43,677 nt of DNA from positions 1-43,677 of the IMG/VR virus record IMGVR_UViG_3300029258_002542; one strand, 5' to 3'. How positions within the stretch are numbered: the first letter of the stretch is position 1; each line of letters opens with the position of its first letter. Below, piece by piece: positions 3,875 through 41,335 of the stretch. The notes under the pieces are model-generated. The model saw nothing but the letters and a program-made list of their open reading frames with translations, searched no databases and was not told where the DNA came from. The DNA comes from a virus. A program made the translations under genes and the position numbers.

Positions 3875-4144
3875 ATGGGCTGTTGTGGCGTGACATGGGG
3901 TGACATAGCGGCGTATCGCGAGGCTATGGCTCGTTGGCGCGCGGCTGGAAAGCCCAGGCGCTGGAAAGCCGGCATTGAAGCCATCTTCTCGATTTGTGCT
4001 GCGTGTCCGGAGTTTGATCGGATCGCGCCATGGCGCGGTCGGTGCAAAGTCTGTCGCTGCTACCTTGGTCGGCACAAGCACAAGTGGTGGCAAGCGAATA
4101 AGATCGCACTAGCGACCGAGCATTGTCCCCTGGGAAAGTGGTAA
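3875..4144 (+). CDS. Cysteine-rich hypothetical protein, 89 aa
   Basis: Starts MGCCGVTWGDIAAYRE with AAGAGG eight bases upstream. The C-terminal half has a probable zinc site: CAACPEF near residue 44 and CKVCRCYLGRHKHKWW near residue 58, followed by a last cysteine in HCPLGKW. The spacing (C-x2-C ... C-x2-C-x-C) resembles small treble-clef or zinc-ribbon proteins common in phages of metagenomes. It probably binds nucleic acid or is a packing factor; nothing more specific can be said. It lies directly upstream of the structured RNA candidate. Confidence 0.65.
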   Translation: MGCCGVTWGDIAAYREAMARWRAAGKPRRWKAGIEAIFSICAACPEFDRIAPWRGRCKVCRCYLGRHKHKWWQANKIALATEHCPLGKW

Positions 4145-7073: not shown

Positions 7074-8380
7074 TGCCCGAAGTTACCGGACCTCAGGTGC
7101 TGATTCAAGCCGACTATGACGGCACGCTTCAGCCCCCAACAACCAAGCCACAAATAACGTACGCCAAACTCCGCGAAATGCGGAAGGACCCGACGATCAG
7201 CCTAGCGCGACGCCTCATGATCGCGCCGGTCTTGGCGAGTCCTTGGTCGTTCGAAGAAGAAGAGGGAGCGCCCGAAGGAGCAAAGGAGTTCATCGCTGAG
7301 CAGCTCCAACCTTTCCGAGCGCACCTGCTCGAGTCCGGCTTCCTTGGCACGACCGACTTCGGATGGCAGCCCTACGAGAAGGTCTTCAAGACTGACTCGA
7401 AAGGACAAGTCGTCATTAGCAAAATCAAGCCATTGCTTCAAGACCACACGACCATCAAGATCATCCCGAAGACCGGCGCTTATGACGGACTCGAGCAGGA
7501 CCCGCCGGAAGGGTGCAGCATTCGGCTGAAGGCCAAGCAAACCTTGCTGCTTAACATTGACGTGGAAGGGACTGACTGGTACGGCACGAGCACCCTGGCG
7601 AACTGTGAAGACGCCTATGACTCGTGGCTCAAGAGTGATGCTGCCGCGGAGCGGTATGGCAGCAAGGTCGCGGGCGCCCACTGGGTCGTCCACTACCCGC
7701 TTGGGTACACCATGTATGAAGGCGTCGAAACCGACAACTTTGAGATCGCGAAGAAGATTCTCATGAGCCTCCAGTCAGCTGGAGCAGTTTGTCTTCCGTC
7801 AACGCTCTCAGCGTTCACAGACACGGTTGACCAAGCCGCGCAGCCGGAGTGGCGTATCGAGCTCAAGAGCGATGGCGGGGGCGGTGCGAGCGTGTTCACG
7901 GACCGACAACGATACCTTGACGCTCTCAAGGTCCGAGCACTAGGCATGCCCGAGCGTGCCATCCTCGAAGGTCAGTTCGGAACGCTCGCTGAAGCTGAAG
8001 CCCACGCCGACTTCGCGATTACCAACATGGACATGCGGCACCGGAGCATCGCGCAACTTGTGAACGATCACGTTGTGAACGATCTTCTGGAGTACAATTA
8101 TGGTCCAGACGCAAAAGACACCGTGTACGTGGAGCCCGCTCCGATTACGGACTTGGCGCTCCAGTATTTGCGGTCAGTCTATACAGCATTCCTTGGAGAC
8201 GACATGGGCCGCCTCCAAGAGATGGAGGGCATTGACTTTGAAGCCTTCCGCGATCGCCTTGGCTTGCCAACCAAGCCAGCCACGGACGTTGACCTCCCAG
8301 GCTTCGTCCCACAAGACGTTTATCCACAATCAACTGAAGCGGGCAGCGAAGGAACGGAGGACGCCGGTGAAGCCAATTAA
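7073..8380 (+). CDS. Portal protein, DUF935 / Mu gp29-like
   Basis: Protein of 435 residues that forms the dodecameric vertex through which DNA passes. The opening (ITYAKLREMRKDPTISLARR) and the middle (GTTDFGWQPYEKVFKT; SWLKSDAAAERYGSKVAG) follow the pattern of DUF935 and SPP1-gp6-type portals, and the region RALGMPERAILEGQFGTLAE around residue 290 is the usual wing-crown transition. It lies directly after the terminase with a 1-base overlap and before the serine protease gene, in the usual order. Match is by pattern and context. The C-terminal tail (last 40 residues) is acidic and probably disordered. Confidence 0.85.
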   Translation: MPEVTGPQVLIQADYDGTLQPPTTKPQITYAKLREMRKDPTISLARRLMIAPVLASPWSFEEEEGAPEGAKEFIAEQLQPFRAHLLESGFLGTTDFGWQPYEKVFKTDSKGQVVISKIKPLLQDHTTIKIIPKTGAYDGLEQDPPEGCSIRLKAKQTLLLNIDVEGTDWYGTSTLANCEDAYDSWLKSDAAAERYGSKVAGAHWVVHYPLGYTMYEGVETDNFEIAKKILMSLQSAGAVCLPSTLSAFTDTVDQAAQPEWRIELKSDGGGGASVFTDRQRYLDALKVRALGMPERAILEGQFGTLAEAEAHADFAITNMDMRHRSIAQLVNDHVVNDLLEYNYGPDAKDTVYVEPAPITDLALQYLRSVYTAFLGDDMGRLQEMEGIDFEAFRDRLGLPTKPATDVDLPGFVPQDVYPQSTEAGSEGTEDAGEAN

Positions 8381-8618: not shown

Positions 8619-9882
8619 ATCAATCATCATCCTCGCGATCGTTATGGGACTGGCGACGCTGCTTCAGGCGGGCTGCCACATCCTTTGCCCGCCCGCCTAC
8701 GGACAGTGCGTCGGCGGCGTGTGCCCAACCGGTCCTCGAGTCCACCCACGAGAGCACGTCGCGGCAGCGGATTACAACAAGCACGCTTCCATCTTCAAAG
8801 TCCAGTCGAACGACACGGACGGACGTATGTCCCACGGGACTGGCGTCGCGATTTGGTTCAATGAAGTGCCGGTCGTGGTGACCAATTACCACAACGTCCG
8901 AGACGCTCGCCGCGGACAAGTCTATGTCTACGACGCCAAGGGCAAGAATTATCCGTGCAAACTGCTTGGCTATAACGCTGGCGAAGACGTCGCTGCCATC
9001 TACGTCCCGGGACTGCCGCGGAGCCAGACGGCGACATACCAGAGAACGTGGGCCTTCCGTCCTCGGACTCGCGTATGGATGTACGGCTTCGGAAAGGACA
9101 GACGGCTCGCGTGGTCGACTGGTTTCACGACGTCCCTGGTCAATCCTAACAGCATGGTGGAAGTTCAAGGCATATCTACCACTCAAGGCGACTCGGGTGG
9201 CCCAGTGATCGCCCAGGGCGGCCTAATTGGCATCCAGCGGCTTGGGAATGAGCGGGGCGTGGCGATCTTCGTCCCGATCCCGCGGATTTGCACGATCTTG
9301 CAACGTCTCGGAATCTGTCGGACAGCCGCGTGGTACGTCCCGACCCAACCAGCTCAAATCGCTCAAGCGCCGCGTGGCCCACCCGCGGCCGCGGAGCCGA
9401 CTGACGAAGAGCTGATTGAGACCGCGCTCGACATGACCAAGATTGACAGCGCTATGACCTCGATGGCTGAGTCATCCCGGGTCCAAGCGGATGCCGTGGT
9501 GGCTTATCTCAATGCCCAGACCAATCAAATCAATCGCCAGATCGCCGAGGATCGCGCACAACGCATCCAAGGCCCGCTCGCTAGTGGAACAGCCTCAGCG
9601 ATGGACGGGTACGCCAGGGCGGGCATGAGAGGCGCTGCCGCCGACGTCCTTCGAAACGAACAAGCACAGACCGGCATTACTGATATTCTGCTTTGGGCCT
9701 TCGCCGCGCTTGGGTTCCTCGTGCCTGGCGGCGGAATCGTTTACACCGCCGTCCGACTCGCGCTCCCATGGGCGGTCAAGCTTGGCTCGAAGACCTTCGC
9801 AAACCTTTTGGACAGCAACGAGACGACGCCCGCGGATAACGCCGTGGCTGCCGTTCGTCGACGTGCTGCTGCCGAGGAGTAA
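8608..9882 (+). CDS. Trypsin-like serine protease lipoprotein
   Basis: Protein of 424 residues. A lipoprotein signal peptide ends in the lipobox LLQAGC (Cys 23). The protease domain follows, with the catalytic triad His 95 (TNYHN), Asp 127 (GEDVAAI) and Ser 196 (QGDSGGP). This is the S1/trypsin-like fold seen in bacterial DegP/HtrA-like and glutamyl-endopeptidase proteins. After a proline/alanine-rich linker there is a helical region and a transmembrane-like stretch (ILLWAFAALGFLVPGGG, about residues 363-379). Serine proteases in phage structural clusters can mature capsids, but the lipobox suggests export and anchoring in the host envelope instead. Start chosen from AAGGGAG upstream; overlaps the preceding gene by 11 bases. 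Confidence 0.85.
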   Translation: MNRKSIIILAIVMGLATLLQAGCHILCPPAYGQCVGGVCPTGPRVHPREHVAAADYNKHASIFKVQSNDTDGRMSHGTGVAIWFNEVPVVVTNYHNVRDARRGQVYVYDAKGKNYPCKLLGYNAGEDVAAIYVPGLPRSQTATYQRTWAFRPRTRVWMYGFGKDRRLAWSTGFTTSLVNPNSMVEVQGISTTQGDSGGPVIAQGGLIGIQRLGNERGVAIFVPIPRICTILQRLGICRTAAWYVPTQPAQIAQAPRGPPAAAEPTDEELIETALDMTKIDSAMTSMAESSRVQADAVVAYLNAQTNQINRQIAEDRAQRIQGPLASGTASAMDGYARAGMRGAAADVLRNEQAQTGITDILLWAFAALGFLVPGGGIVYTAVRLALPWAVKLGSKTFANLLDSNETTPADNAVAAVRRRAAAEE

Positions 9883-10784: not shown

Positions 10785-11807
10785 ATGCCCGTCGTACCTC
10801 TATTCGTTCAACCAACCGGCGGCGGCTTGCCTGCTGCGCTCCTAGGGAGAAGACAGATGCAACTTATTTCATTCAAGCACTCGCAAGATTCCGTGATCTT
10901 GCGAGTCTTTCTCGTTGACCCGAACGGAGCTGGACAGCCAGGCATCACGTGGGACCAAGTGGGGCTGAGCATCCAGACGGTCGCGGACAGCGAGGACACG
11001 GTCGTGGGCTACTCTGGCGGCGTCGGAAATGACATCGAGGGCATCACAGCGCTCGGGACGTATGAAGCGCCGACCGCGGGCAAGTGCCGCTTCGCGTACG
11101 TCAACGACTTGGCCATGCCTGGCGTCTACGAAATCCATCTGGCTGATGCCCGCTTCGCCGCTGCCGGCGCGAAGTCGCTCATGGTCCTGATTCGGTTCGT
11201 GTCAATCGGCTTGCTTGATGCCGTGTTCACAATTCCGCTCACGCAGACCGATCCTTATGACGGAGTGAATGGCGGGCTTGACACGCTGACCAGATACGCG
11301 ACCATGATTCAAGTCGCTGACTCGGGCGACTACCAGTTCACGGCGGAAGCGCTTGAGCTTGGCCCAACGTGCACCACATACACGTTGAGCACGCCTGGAA
11401 TCTCCGTGCCGGAGTGCTACGCTCCGGACGAGTATCTGGACTTGGTATTCGGCAAGAACAACATCGACAAGTGGGCCGACTTGGACAACGAAGGCGACGC
11501 CACCACGATCGCCAACCGACGAGCCTGGGCCACCTGCACGGCGTCAGCCTTGATCGACTCCCGCTTCCGCGACGGAACGTACGTGATTCCGTTCGTGGAG
11601 CCGATTGAGCTAGACATCGTTGACCTCTGTGCTCGTTGGGCTGGAGTGCTGCTCTACGACGGTCGCTTGATCCGCGAGGACCAAGACCAGACCGACGAGA
11701 TGGGGCACCAACGGAAGATAATCGAGGACCGGATTACCAAGCTCCTTTCCGGTCAAATGCGTTTGAACCTAACCCGCACTAGCAACGCCCCATCGGTGGT
11801 CAAATGA
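10785..11807 (+). CDS. Head-tail connector, Mu gp36 (DUF1320)-like, with N-terminal beta domain
   Basis: Protein of 340 residues. The C-terminal part (about 170-340; LTRYATMIQ, GKNNIDKWADLD, ANRRAWATCTASALIDSRFR, LCARWAGVLLYDG) matches the phage DUF1320/gp36 pattern: a helical bundle that joins head and tail. The N-terminal part (FKHSQDSVILRVFLVDPNGA, then GVYEIHLADARFA) is a beta-sandwich-like domain similar to receptor-binding upper-baseplate modules. A second in-frame start at ATG 10857 with AGGGAGAAG upstream is about as good as ATG 10785 (AAGGTGA). I keep the longer one. Confidence 0.7.
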   Translation: MPVVPLFVQPTGGGLPAALLGRRQMQLISFKHSQDSVILRVFLVDPNGAGQPGITWDQVGLSIQTVADSEDTVVGYSGGVGNDIEGITALGTYEAPTAGKCRFAYVNDLAMPGVYEIHLADARFAAAGAKSLMVLIRFVSIGLLDAVFTIPLTQTDPYDGVNGGLDTLTRYATMIQVADSGDYQFTAEALELGPTCTTYTLSTPGISVPECYAPDEYLDLVFGKNNIDKWADLDNEGDATTIANRRAWATCTASALIDSRFRDGTYVIPFVEPIELDIVDLCARWAGVLLYDGRLIREDQDQTDEMGHQRKIIEDRITKLLSGQMRLNLTRTSNAPSVVK

Positions 11808-37857: not shown

Positions 37858-37893
37858 TGGGGTGTACGAGCTGACCGATACTTGGTACTATTA
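37858..37893 (+). promoter_or_regulatory. Repeated promoter element P1
   Basis: This 36-base element recurs at 40071-40106 with two mismatches (one in the middle, one in the -10). It contains TGTACG as the -35, 17 bases of spacer, and TACTAT as the -10 with a TGG extension (TGGTACTAT). It lies between the DNA polymerase gene and the small-gene cluster, so it should drive the cluster starting at 37943. The conserved segment between -35 and -10 suggests an operator as well. Confidence 0.75.
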
Positions 37894-37942
37894 TCATTAG
37901 TCAATCAAACACACCTCACTTCAAACTACGGAGCACATGACC

Positions 37943-38200
37943 ATGACCAACGAACAAGCCAAAGCAATCGTGACCACCCTCTTCACCCTCGCCGTCCGGT
38001 CGGAAGCCGACTGTCGCTCTCCTGAAGCCGGCGCCTACAGCATGCTGATTCAAGTCGCTGCTTGCAACGACGAAGAGAAGCAGCTGCTCGTTACCACTTG
38101 CTACGAGCGCAGTGGTGTGGGAGACGAAGACAACCACTCCGCCGACGACGCGGAATTCTACTTCTCGATTGCTGGCGACATCGAAGACACTTCCTACTAG
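37943..38200 (+). CDS. Small early protein, LF-LA-R family member 1, 85 aa
   Basis: First gene after the repeated promoter. Start chosen at the second ATG, 37943 (MTNEQAKAIVTTLFTLAVRS), because ACGGAG is 9 bases upstream; the first ATG, 37937, is too close. The motif LFTLAVR followed by a helical middle and acidic end (DDAEFYFSIAGDIEDTSY) is also seen in the genes at 39223 and 39438, so these may be paralogues. The stop codon's last G is the first base of the hammerhead ribozyme. No known function. Confidence 0.7.
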   Translation: MTNEQAKAIVTTLFTLAVRSEADCRSPEAGAYSMLIQVAACNDEEKQLLVTTCYERSGVGDEDNHSADDAEFYFSIAGDIEDTSY

Positions 38201-38250
38201 AGCGAAACGCCTTCGGGCGTCTGGTGCTACGAGGCACCACTGACGAGCTC
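38200..38250 (+). ncRNA. Type II hammerhead ribozyme (HHR-1)
   Basis: All conserved core bases are present in circular order. Stem II 3' strand GAGC (38200-38203) is followed by GAAA, stem III ACGCC-UUCG-GGCGU (38207-38220), the cleavage base C at 38221 (GUC triplet), stem I UGGUGC/GCACCA (38222-38227, 38234-38239), the core CUGACGA (38240-38246), and stem II 5' strand GCUC (38247-38250) pairing with GAGC. The 10.1 G to 11.1 C pair and A15.1-U16.1 pair are intact. Cleavage is expected between 38221 and 38222. The stop codon of the preceding gene overlaps the first base, so translation could modulate folding. Confidence 0.92.
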
Positions 38251-38279: not shown

Positions 38280-38492
38280 ATGACAAACATCGACAAGCTG
38301 CTCCTCGAACTATGTCGCGTCCTCAAAGAGAACAACGGACGACCGAACGAATCACTCGCCAAGTGCCTCGCGGCAGCAAAGCCCGAGACGCTTGAAGCTC
38401 TCGACAACATGACGACCGTCATGATGCAAATGACCGACGACAAGACCTACTCCCAACTCCGTGTCTTGATCCGTCTTCGCCTCGCTAAATAA
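38280..38492 (+). CDS. Small early protein, 70 aa
   Basis: Begins MTNIDKLLLELCRVLKENNG and continues as a helical protein (SLAKCLAAAKPETLEALDNM). It follows HHR-1, so cleavage would leave its mRNA with a 5' end at 38222 just upstream of the ribosome site. The LLLELCR start vaguely resembles the LF-LA-R motif of neighbours. Function unknown. Confidence 0.7.
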   Translation: MTNIDKLLLELCRVLKENNGRPNESLAKCLAAAKPETLEALDNMTTVMMQMTDDKTYSQLRVLIRLRLAK

Positions 38493-40070: not shown

Positions 40071-40106
40071 TGGGGTGTACGAGCTGGCCGATACTTGGTA
40101 ATATTA
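40071..40106 (+). promoter_or_regulatory. Repeated promoter element P2
   Basis: Second copy of the 36-base element (34 of 36 identical to 37858-37893). The -35 is TGTACG and the extended -10 is TGGTAATAT, spacing 17. It drives the small acidic protein gene at 40153. The differences fall at one spacer base and one -10 base. Confidence 0.75.
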
Positions 40107-40370: not shown

Positions 40371-40721
40371 ATGGCAATCACGACCGAACAAATCACCATC
40401 CAAATCATGAACACTGTCAACGCCGCGAAGGAAGAGCTCGCTCGCTGCCGCACGCATCACGACCACTCCGCTCGTTACCACGAAGCACGCTGGTGGAAAA
40501 TCCTGATGATGGAATTCCAACGCGGCTACGACGCCTCGCTCGAACGTGGCAAGGGAATGACTGGTCGCGAAGCCTTCGACCACACCGTCCGCGTTCTGAC
40601 ACCCAACTGGCACGGACGACTGGAGTCTTGCCTCAATCACAACTGCCTGCCCGAAGCACGAGCGACGACCACCATGCTCCGCTTCGTGAACGAAGTCCAA
40701 GAGGATATGCGGACCGCCTAA
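40371..40721 (+). CDS. Small early protein, 116 aa
   Basis: Begins MAITTEQITIQIMNTVNAAK, with an HDHSARYHEARWWKILMMEF segment and a helical end. It has three histidines around residues 25-35 and no recognised family. The stop TAA overlaps the first base of the second hammerhead ribozyme, repeating the arrangement at 38200. GGAG ribosome site. Confidence 0.7.
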   Translation: MAITTEQITIQIMNTVNAAKEELARCRTHHDHSARYHEARWWKILMMEFQRGYDASLERGKGMTGREAFDHTVRVLTPNWHGRLESCLNHNCLPEARATTTMLRFVNEVQEDMRTA

Positions 40722-40791
40722 GCAACAAATCGAAACGCCTTCGGGCGTCATGGCGTGAGGGTTCGCGCCATCTGACGAGAAGCCAGTTGCT
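40721..40791 (+). ncRNA. Type II hammerhead ribozyme (HHR-2)
   Basis: The core is complete. Stem II is formed by AGCAAC (40721-40726) with GUUGCU (40786-40791) and by UC (40730-40731) with GA (40779-40780), separated by an internal loop. GAAA follows at 40732-40735, then stem III ACGCC-UUCG-GGCGU (40735-40748), cleavage base C at 40749, stem I AUGGCG/CGCCAU (40750-40755, 40766-40771) with a 10-base loop, and CUGACGA (40772-40778). The sequence of stem III and its loop is identical to HHR-1, whereas stems I and II differ but keep their pairing. Cleavage is expected between 40749 and 40750. Confidence 0.92.
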
Positions 40792-40820: not shown

Positions 40821-41276
40821 ATGGCCAAAGTAACGAAGAAGACCGCCGCCTCGAAGCCCGCCGCCGCCGCCGCCAAGTCCGCCGCCCCCGGCACGACCGA
40901 AGAGAAGCCGAAGAAGGCCAAGCGAATCGCTTACCCGACGCTCAACGTCGAAGAGGGTGACAACGGCAAGGCGACCACGCCGCTCGACGCGATCCCCGAG
41001 GACTATGACTCGAAGAAGCACCTGCCGCTGCGTCGCAAGGACTTCTCCGACGAGTCGATGTGGTTCGACATGAAGGCGGACGAATACGACGGCAAGGCTG
41101 CCGCGTTCCGCAAGCAAGCCGCTGACTGGCGTGCCATGGGCTCCAAGGCCGACCGTGCGAAGGCCAAGCGCCTCATCGCCATGAAGGCGAAGATGGCGGA
41201 GCTCGAAGCCGCGCTGAAGGCCGAAGGCATCGACACCGATGCGCTGCTCGGCACCGACGAAGACTCGGACGAATAG
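40821..41276 (+). CDS. Basic/acidic helical protein, 151 aa
   Basis: The N-terminus is alanine- and lysine-rich (KKTAASKPAAAAAKSAA), resembling histone-like tails, followed by an acidic middle and a helical C-terminus (AKRLIAMKAKMAELEAALKA, then GTDEDSDE). It may bind DNA through the basic tail. It follows HHR-2 and ends before the strong terminator. No family recognised. The leader CACTACAGGAG is a variant of the recurrent motif. Confidence 0.7.
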   Translation: MAKVTKKTAASKPAAAAAKSAAPGTTEEKPKKAKRIAYPTLNVEEGDNGKATTPLDAIPEDYDSKKHLPLRRKDFSDESMWFDMKADEYDGKAAAFRKQAADWRAMGSKADRAKAKRLIAMKAKMAELEAALKAEGIDTDALLGTDEDSDE

Positions 41277-41292: not shown

Positions 41293-41335
41293 GACATGGC
41301 CGCTCGCCCGCGGGGGCGGCCATGTCTTTCTTCTC
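41293..41335 (+). terminator. Rho-independent terminator
   Basis: GACATGGCCGC (41293-41303) pairs with GCGGCCATGTC (41316-41326), an 11-bp GC-rich stem with a 12-base loop, followed by TTTCTTCTC. It lies 17 bases after the preceding stop codon. This is the best intrinsic terminator in the window. Confidence 0.85.

Follow-up and report, generated by a model that had tools for sequence, protein, structure and literature searches.

Type II hammerheads at stop codons in a siphophage contig and in other phages

What does a complete hammerhead motif do when it begins within the stop codon of a phage gene? The question is raised by nucleotides 38200 to 38250 of IMG/VR virus record IMGVR_UViG_3300029258_002542, the whole of which (43,677 nucleotides, referred to below as the window) was analyzed. 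The record is a contig with siphophage genes and encodes terminase, portal, capsid, tape measure, helicase, primase, DNA polymerase, thymidylate synthase, and ligase. Type II hammerheads flanking phage genes have already been described, as the initial annotation of this locus had noted in general terms, and so has the proposal that hammerheads divide phage transcripts into mRNAs of gene length, with cleavage shown (Perreault et al. 2011, PMC3088659). The role of prokaryotic hammerheads was still an open question in a 2017 review (PMC6155905).

The HHR1 element

The element, HHR1, and its surroundings, with positions read from the sequence, comprise the following parts.

37937 to 38200, + strand: upstream ORF, 87 aa, without a PHROG or Pfam match
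38198 to 38200, + strand: TAG stop of this ORF; G38200 and C38250 form the outermost pair of stem II
38200 to 38250, + strand: HHR1, type II hammerhead of the short-loop-I class (4-bp stem II, 17- to 18-nt stem-loop I)
G38200-C38203 with G38247-C38250, + strand: stem II
38204 to 38221, + strand: GAAA (38204-38207), then stem III (CGCC-UUCG-GGCG), U16.1, and C17
A38207-U38220, + strand: A15.1-U16.1 pair
38208-38211 with 38216-38219, + strand: stem III, closed by UUCG
C38221, + strand: C17, with the predicted cut on its 3' side
38222 to 38239, + strand: stem-loop I, UGGUGCU-ACGA-GGCACCA (stem, 38222-38228 with 38233-38239), whose last pair, U.G, closes the ACGA loop
38240 to 38250, + strand: CUGACGA core (38240-38246) and the 3' half of stem II
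38280 to 38492, + strand: downstream ORF, 70 aa, preceded by a ribosome-site-like AAAGG stretch and without a PHROG or Pfam match

By motif and structure, positions 38200 to 38250 (+ strand) are confirmed as a complete consensus type II hammerhead. The parts follow one another in the type II order: one half of stem II, GAAA, hairpin III, UC, hairpin I, CUGACGA, and the other half of stem II. Three helices surround the core, with stems I and III closed and stem II open, and the core (C3UGANGA9, G12AAA, A15.1-U16.1, G10.1-C11.1, and H17) is complete; the same holds for the second element, HHR2, described below. The RNAfold minimum is exactly this fold (-21.8 kcal/mol; z, -2.0), and in longer contexts stem II is paired at just 0.3 to 0.6 in a folding model that includes no tertiary energy. 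The best-studied type II class has a Watson-Crick pseudoknot between loop I and the tail, which HHR1 lacks: its loop I and tail form at most 2 to 3 such pairs, fewer than the four that define the pseudoknot. In 300 dinucleotide-shuffled windows (both strands, 26.2 Mb), the minimal type II motif turned up 3 times, never with stems reaching 4, 4, and 5 bp. Type I and type III hammerheads were not found in the window.

Every conserved hammerhead nucleotide named in the initial annotation is in place, and the type II layout is borne out by the sequence, the RNAfold minimum, and the covariance model R1 (see below). The sequence of stem III supports the claim that the upstream product would end in a UUCG-capped hairpin, and the cleavage site 3' of position 38221 stands as a prediction, C17 being C38221. 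The annotation had also assigned the last G of the upstream stop codon to stem II. This is indeed G38200, and the placement recurs: in 79 of the 361 relatives listed, stem II has its outermost pair exactly at the last base of the stop.

A second hammerhead in the same phage

HHR2, overlooked in the initial annotation, was found by relaxing the stem II requirement to 2 bp; reversed-sequence controls gave no matches in the relaxed scan. Like HHR1, it is on the + strand between + strand ORFs and starts at the last base of a stop codon, which makes two such elements per genome.

40371 to 40721, + strand: upstream ORF, 116 aa
40719 to 40721, + strand: TAA stop of this ORF; A40721-U40791 is the outermost pair of the HHR2 outer helix
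40721 to 40791, + strand: HHR2, type II hammerhead, long class (R1 score, 38.9 bits; E, 6.6e-12)
within 40721 to 40791, + strand: inner stem II UC/GA, internal loop AAA/AGCCA, and outer helix AGCAAC/GUUGCU
C40749, + strand: predicted cleavage on its 3' side, from sequence coordinates
40760 to 40784, + strand: possible loop I-stem II pseudoknot, GGUU (40760-40763) with AGCC (40781-40784), 4 possible pairs
40821 to 41276, + strand: gene 3' of HHR2, 151 aa, with an AGGAG ribosome site

Stem III (CGCC-UUCG-GGCG) is identical in the two elements, and stem-loop I is longer in HHR2. The possible HHR2 pseudoknot lies where a pseudoknot has been described in type II hammerheads (PMC3088659). The small ORFs adjoining HHR1 and HHR2 have no match in PHROG or Pfam.

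Two further features lie nearby. A strong terminator-like hairpin at 41293 to 41326 (13 pairs, T-rich tail) closes the unit 3' of HHR2. A 36-nt repeat is present in two 94% identical copies (37858-37893 and 40071-40106), located 5' of the gene or genes preceding each hammerhead, with no further copies elsewhere in the window; it is possibly a phage promoter or regulator site.

Covariance models and relatives

The Rfam model RF02276 gives HHR1 22.1 bits (E, 0.07) and HHR2 31.1 bits (E, 1.1e-4). At its gathering score of 37 bits it has no match in the window, both elements falling below; this cut-off is a curated database threshold that lies outside the structural definition, to which both elements conform. 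Model R1 was built from alignment A1, which consists of 42 short-class phage hammerheads and excludes the window sequence. It recognizes HHR1 at 56.9 bits (E, 1.3e-18) and has no match in the window beyond HHR1 and HHR2 at E values up to 1. The covariance search suggested in the initial annotation was positive for HHR1 with R1 and negative with RF02276 at its own threshold. In A1, 98.7% of cells are paired, a figure that is partly circular, the members having been picked by pairing. The U.G closing pair of stem I, which was not a selection criterion, is present in 30 of 41 A1 members.

Relatives were gathered by descriptor scans of viral contigs, and all counts are among the matches listed. 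At least 408 distinct type II hammerheads, including the two in the window, passed a pairing check, and the number later rose to at least 545 in other contigs. With the same first pattern, and 120 matches as the denominator in each case, folded hammerheads were found at 78 viral loci and in just 7 fetched stretches (8 hammerheads) of bacterial and archaeal genomes. The relatives form two classes by the length of stem-loop I, a property for which the scans did not select: 17 to 18 nt, mostly with a 4-bp stem II, and 21 to 24 nt. HHR1 belongs to the short class and HHR2 to the long one. Over the whole set, loop I-tail pairing is above that with shuffled tails, as expected from the published pseudoknot. 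The 19-nt stretch CGAAACGCCTTCGGGCGTC, which contains stem III with the UUCG loop and is identical to that of HHR1, is strikingly recurrent: at least 119 viral stretches contain it together with the 3' half of a hammerhead.

Some records carry many copies. R1 has 20 matches in the whole record G001 (L116), 12 in G007 (L275), and 11 in G009, and an array of 10 type II hammerheads is found in L279 (G002); the arrays in L116, L279, and L275 separate small genes. A fragment of G007 is 100% identical to the cultured Streptomyces phage Paedore and 88% identical to phage R4, in whose corresponding regions R1 has 13 and 8 matches, respectively. In R4 (L583), hammerhead matches at 3931 to 3988, 9251 to 9308, 7903 to 7959, and 11555 to 11608 overlap the annotated small genes gp60.1 and gp75.1 and the 5' parts of gp72 and gp81, which suggests spurious genes or misplaced starts.

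At the DNA level, no near relatives of the window phage were found. Its DNA polymerase had a single weak match among viral contigs (22% identity), at a locus without a hammerhead (L002), and the primase and the ORF at 38280 retrieved no near relative. The DNA polymerase relative MW202657 (37.5% identity) showed just a poor 14-bit match in the region searched. R1 did not match the control PaP3, for which a hammerhead with a variant core has been published.

Placement at stop codons

Placement at stop codons is a general rule in phages, extending beyond the two copies in the window. It was assessed, among the matches listed, in 368 relatives from other viral contigs that have the end of an ORF of 50 codons or more close by. 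With genes called as simple ORFs and contigs that are not fully independent, the stop ends 2 to 12 nt before GAAA in 272 of these 368 (74%) and 2 to 5 nt before it in 173. The anchoring is seen in all three scans, when one hammerhead per contig is counted (169 of 230), and in a later scan (98 of 122). The corresponding control values are 3 to 4%: 84 of 2,451 random positions and 59 of 1,423 positions at the same distance before other starts. Terminator-like hairpins lie within 12 nt of a stop in 15% of cases. A bacterial and archaeal replicate, too small to add much, had the stop within 12 nt in 6 of 8 hammerheads, and among the curated genes of Paedore, 8 of 13 hammerhead matches begin 0 to 10 nt after an annotated stop.

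Anti-core helix

In many short-class relatives, stem II is followed by five bases, N'UCAG, that complement C3-A6 and N7 of the core. This tail is almost confined to the short-loop class: among the relatives listed, 117 of the 271 short-class members have it and none of the 271 long-class members does, the last scan having required the tail, so that 117 is inflated and the 43% is a biased frequency. That scan admitted any of the four Y/R combinations, and in it N7 covaries with its partner (U-A, 51; C-G, 35; U-G, 1; C-A, 0). Permutation of 86 of these N7-tail pairs gave 44 expected matches and a maximum of 61, and 85 were observed. The helix and the active core are predicted to be mutually exclusive, with the helix dominant both before and after cleavage. 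Carriers include L287, L018, L039, L083, and L478 to L582; the helix is absent from HHR1 and HHR2. Neither it nor the stop-codon rule was found in the literature searched, which was mostly non-subscription, and priority is not established.

Comparison with known systems

RiboJ-type insulators are synthetic elements engineered from the sTRSV hammerhead. Placed in the 5' untranslated region (UTR), the hammerhead leaves a defined 5'-OH end and a hairpin and insulates the downstream gene. Such insulators sit after a promoter, whereas HHR1 and HHR2 sit between genes.

With natural type II hammerheads (RF02276; PMC3088659), HHR1 and HHR2 have in common the open stem II, closed stems I and III, full core, and GUC, as well as the phage context and clusters between genes. 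A loop I-tail pairing is also possible in HHR2, whereas HHR1 differs in its 4-bp stem II, short stem-loop I, lack of a pseudoknot, and low Rfam score. Prophages (Agrobacterium tumefaciens ardA, Azorhizobium, and C. scindens) likewise contain close-set hammerheads flanking genes, which cleave in vitro and, in the case of the Agrobacterium trio, also in Escherichia coli (PMC3088659); their stop-codon register is not discussed in the accessible part of that paper. In haloviruses HF1 and HF2, a hammerhead also lies directly 5' of the start codon of a phage gene, and the 5' end of a transcript has been mapped close to where it cleaves (PMC3088659). Its core is a variant one, in contrast to the consensus cores of HHR1 and HHR2.

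Proposed function and alternatives

HHR1 and HHR2 are probably cis-acting self-cleaving processing sites in phage mRNA. This reading combines the motif, statistics, placement, and recurrence in phages observed here with the cleavage of such elements reported in the literature, where 14 of 18 consensus hammerheads tested were active (PMC3088659); that HHR1 and HHR2 themselves cleave, and that the resulting ends are protected, is what we infer. A transcript crossing either element would be cut once, after C38221 or after C40749, leaving the gene just translated and the one that follows it on separate messages. The upstream product would retain its stop codon, and its 3' end would be a tight hairpin capped by UUCG and carrying a 2',3'-cyclic phosphate. 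The downstream product would start at the first base of stem-loop I, where it would have a 5'-OH, and its own ribosome-binding site would follow. As both of these ends are structured, the likely benefit would be single-gene mRNAs that are stable and can be tuned separately. Stem II, GAAA, and half of stem III would lie under a ribosome terminating at the stop, so the cut would probably be made before a ribosome arrives or in the interval between two.

The placement itself has an even chance of reflecting compact packing and 3'-end protection alone, the hammerhead lying as near the stop as the sequence permits without any coupling to the ribosome. Contact of the stop with stem II strongly exceeds a uniform-placement null when 8 to 20 nt are reserved for the ribosome site and does not when 24 to 28 nt are reserved (z, 14.6 at 12 nt and 0.9 at 24 nt), which indicates that compactness is part of the explanation. 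The stem III loop is often a UUCG or GNRA-type tetraloop in the two scans that left stem III unfixed, which also fits this reading. However, how close the stop lies is unrelated to how far away the next start is (Spearman, 0.015), and of 24 hammerheads with the start at least 80 nt away, 20 are still anchored. Pure squeezing between genes was rejected on this ground, compactness being retained as a partial cause.

A plausible, on the whole rather unlikely, alternative is a ribosome-gated ribozyme, as put forward in the initial annotation, in which the terminating ribosome would block folding and cleavage would report upstream translation in an attenuation-like manner. The 74% anchoring among the relatives listed, its independence of the next start, and the distance that terminator-like hairpins keep from stops are consistent with gating. 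In the folding model, HHR1 loses stems II and III when 38180 to 38211 are masked, as by a footprint extending ~11 nt beyond the stop, and the core-complementary tail of the 117 short-class relatives would provide two exclusive folds. HHR1 and HHR2, however, have no such tail, a hammerhead may cut before the first ribosome comes, and the anchoring would be just as expected if selection favored a short 3' UTR. It appears unlikely that phage type II hammerheads are, as a group, stop-anchored, translation-gated mRNA cutters whose core is then locked, in a large subclass, by the covarying anti-core helix; if this were true, phage operons would be divided into single-gene messages according to translation. 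Finally, HHR1 scores below the Rfam gathering threshold and 4 of the 18 tested consensus hammerheads did not cleave (PMC3088659), but a chance or inactive look-alike is very hard to reconcile with the R1 E value, the lack of comparable motifs in shuffled windows, the fit to a class with a fixed stem-loop I length of 17 to 18 nt, and the second copy in the same phage.

The processing sites proposed here belong to a known hammerhead type; their anchoring at stops and the anti-core helix are the interesting part. A strict positional rule at stop codons, seen in hundreds of cases, would tie mRNA processing to gene ends and makes the function of phage ribozymes directly testable by simple experiments. 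Since the cultured Streptomyces phages R4 and Paedore carry many copies, such tests are possible in vivo without the uncultured phage of the window.
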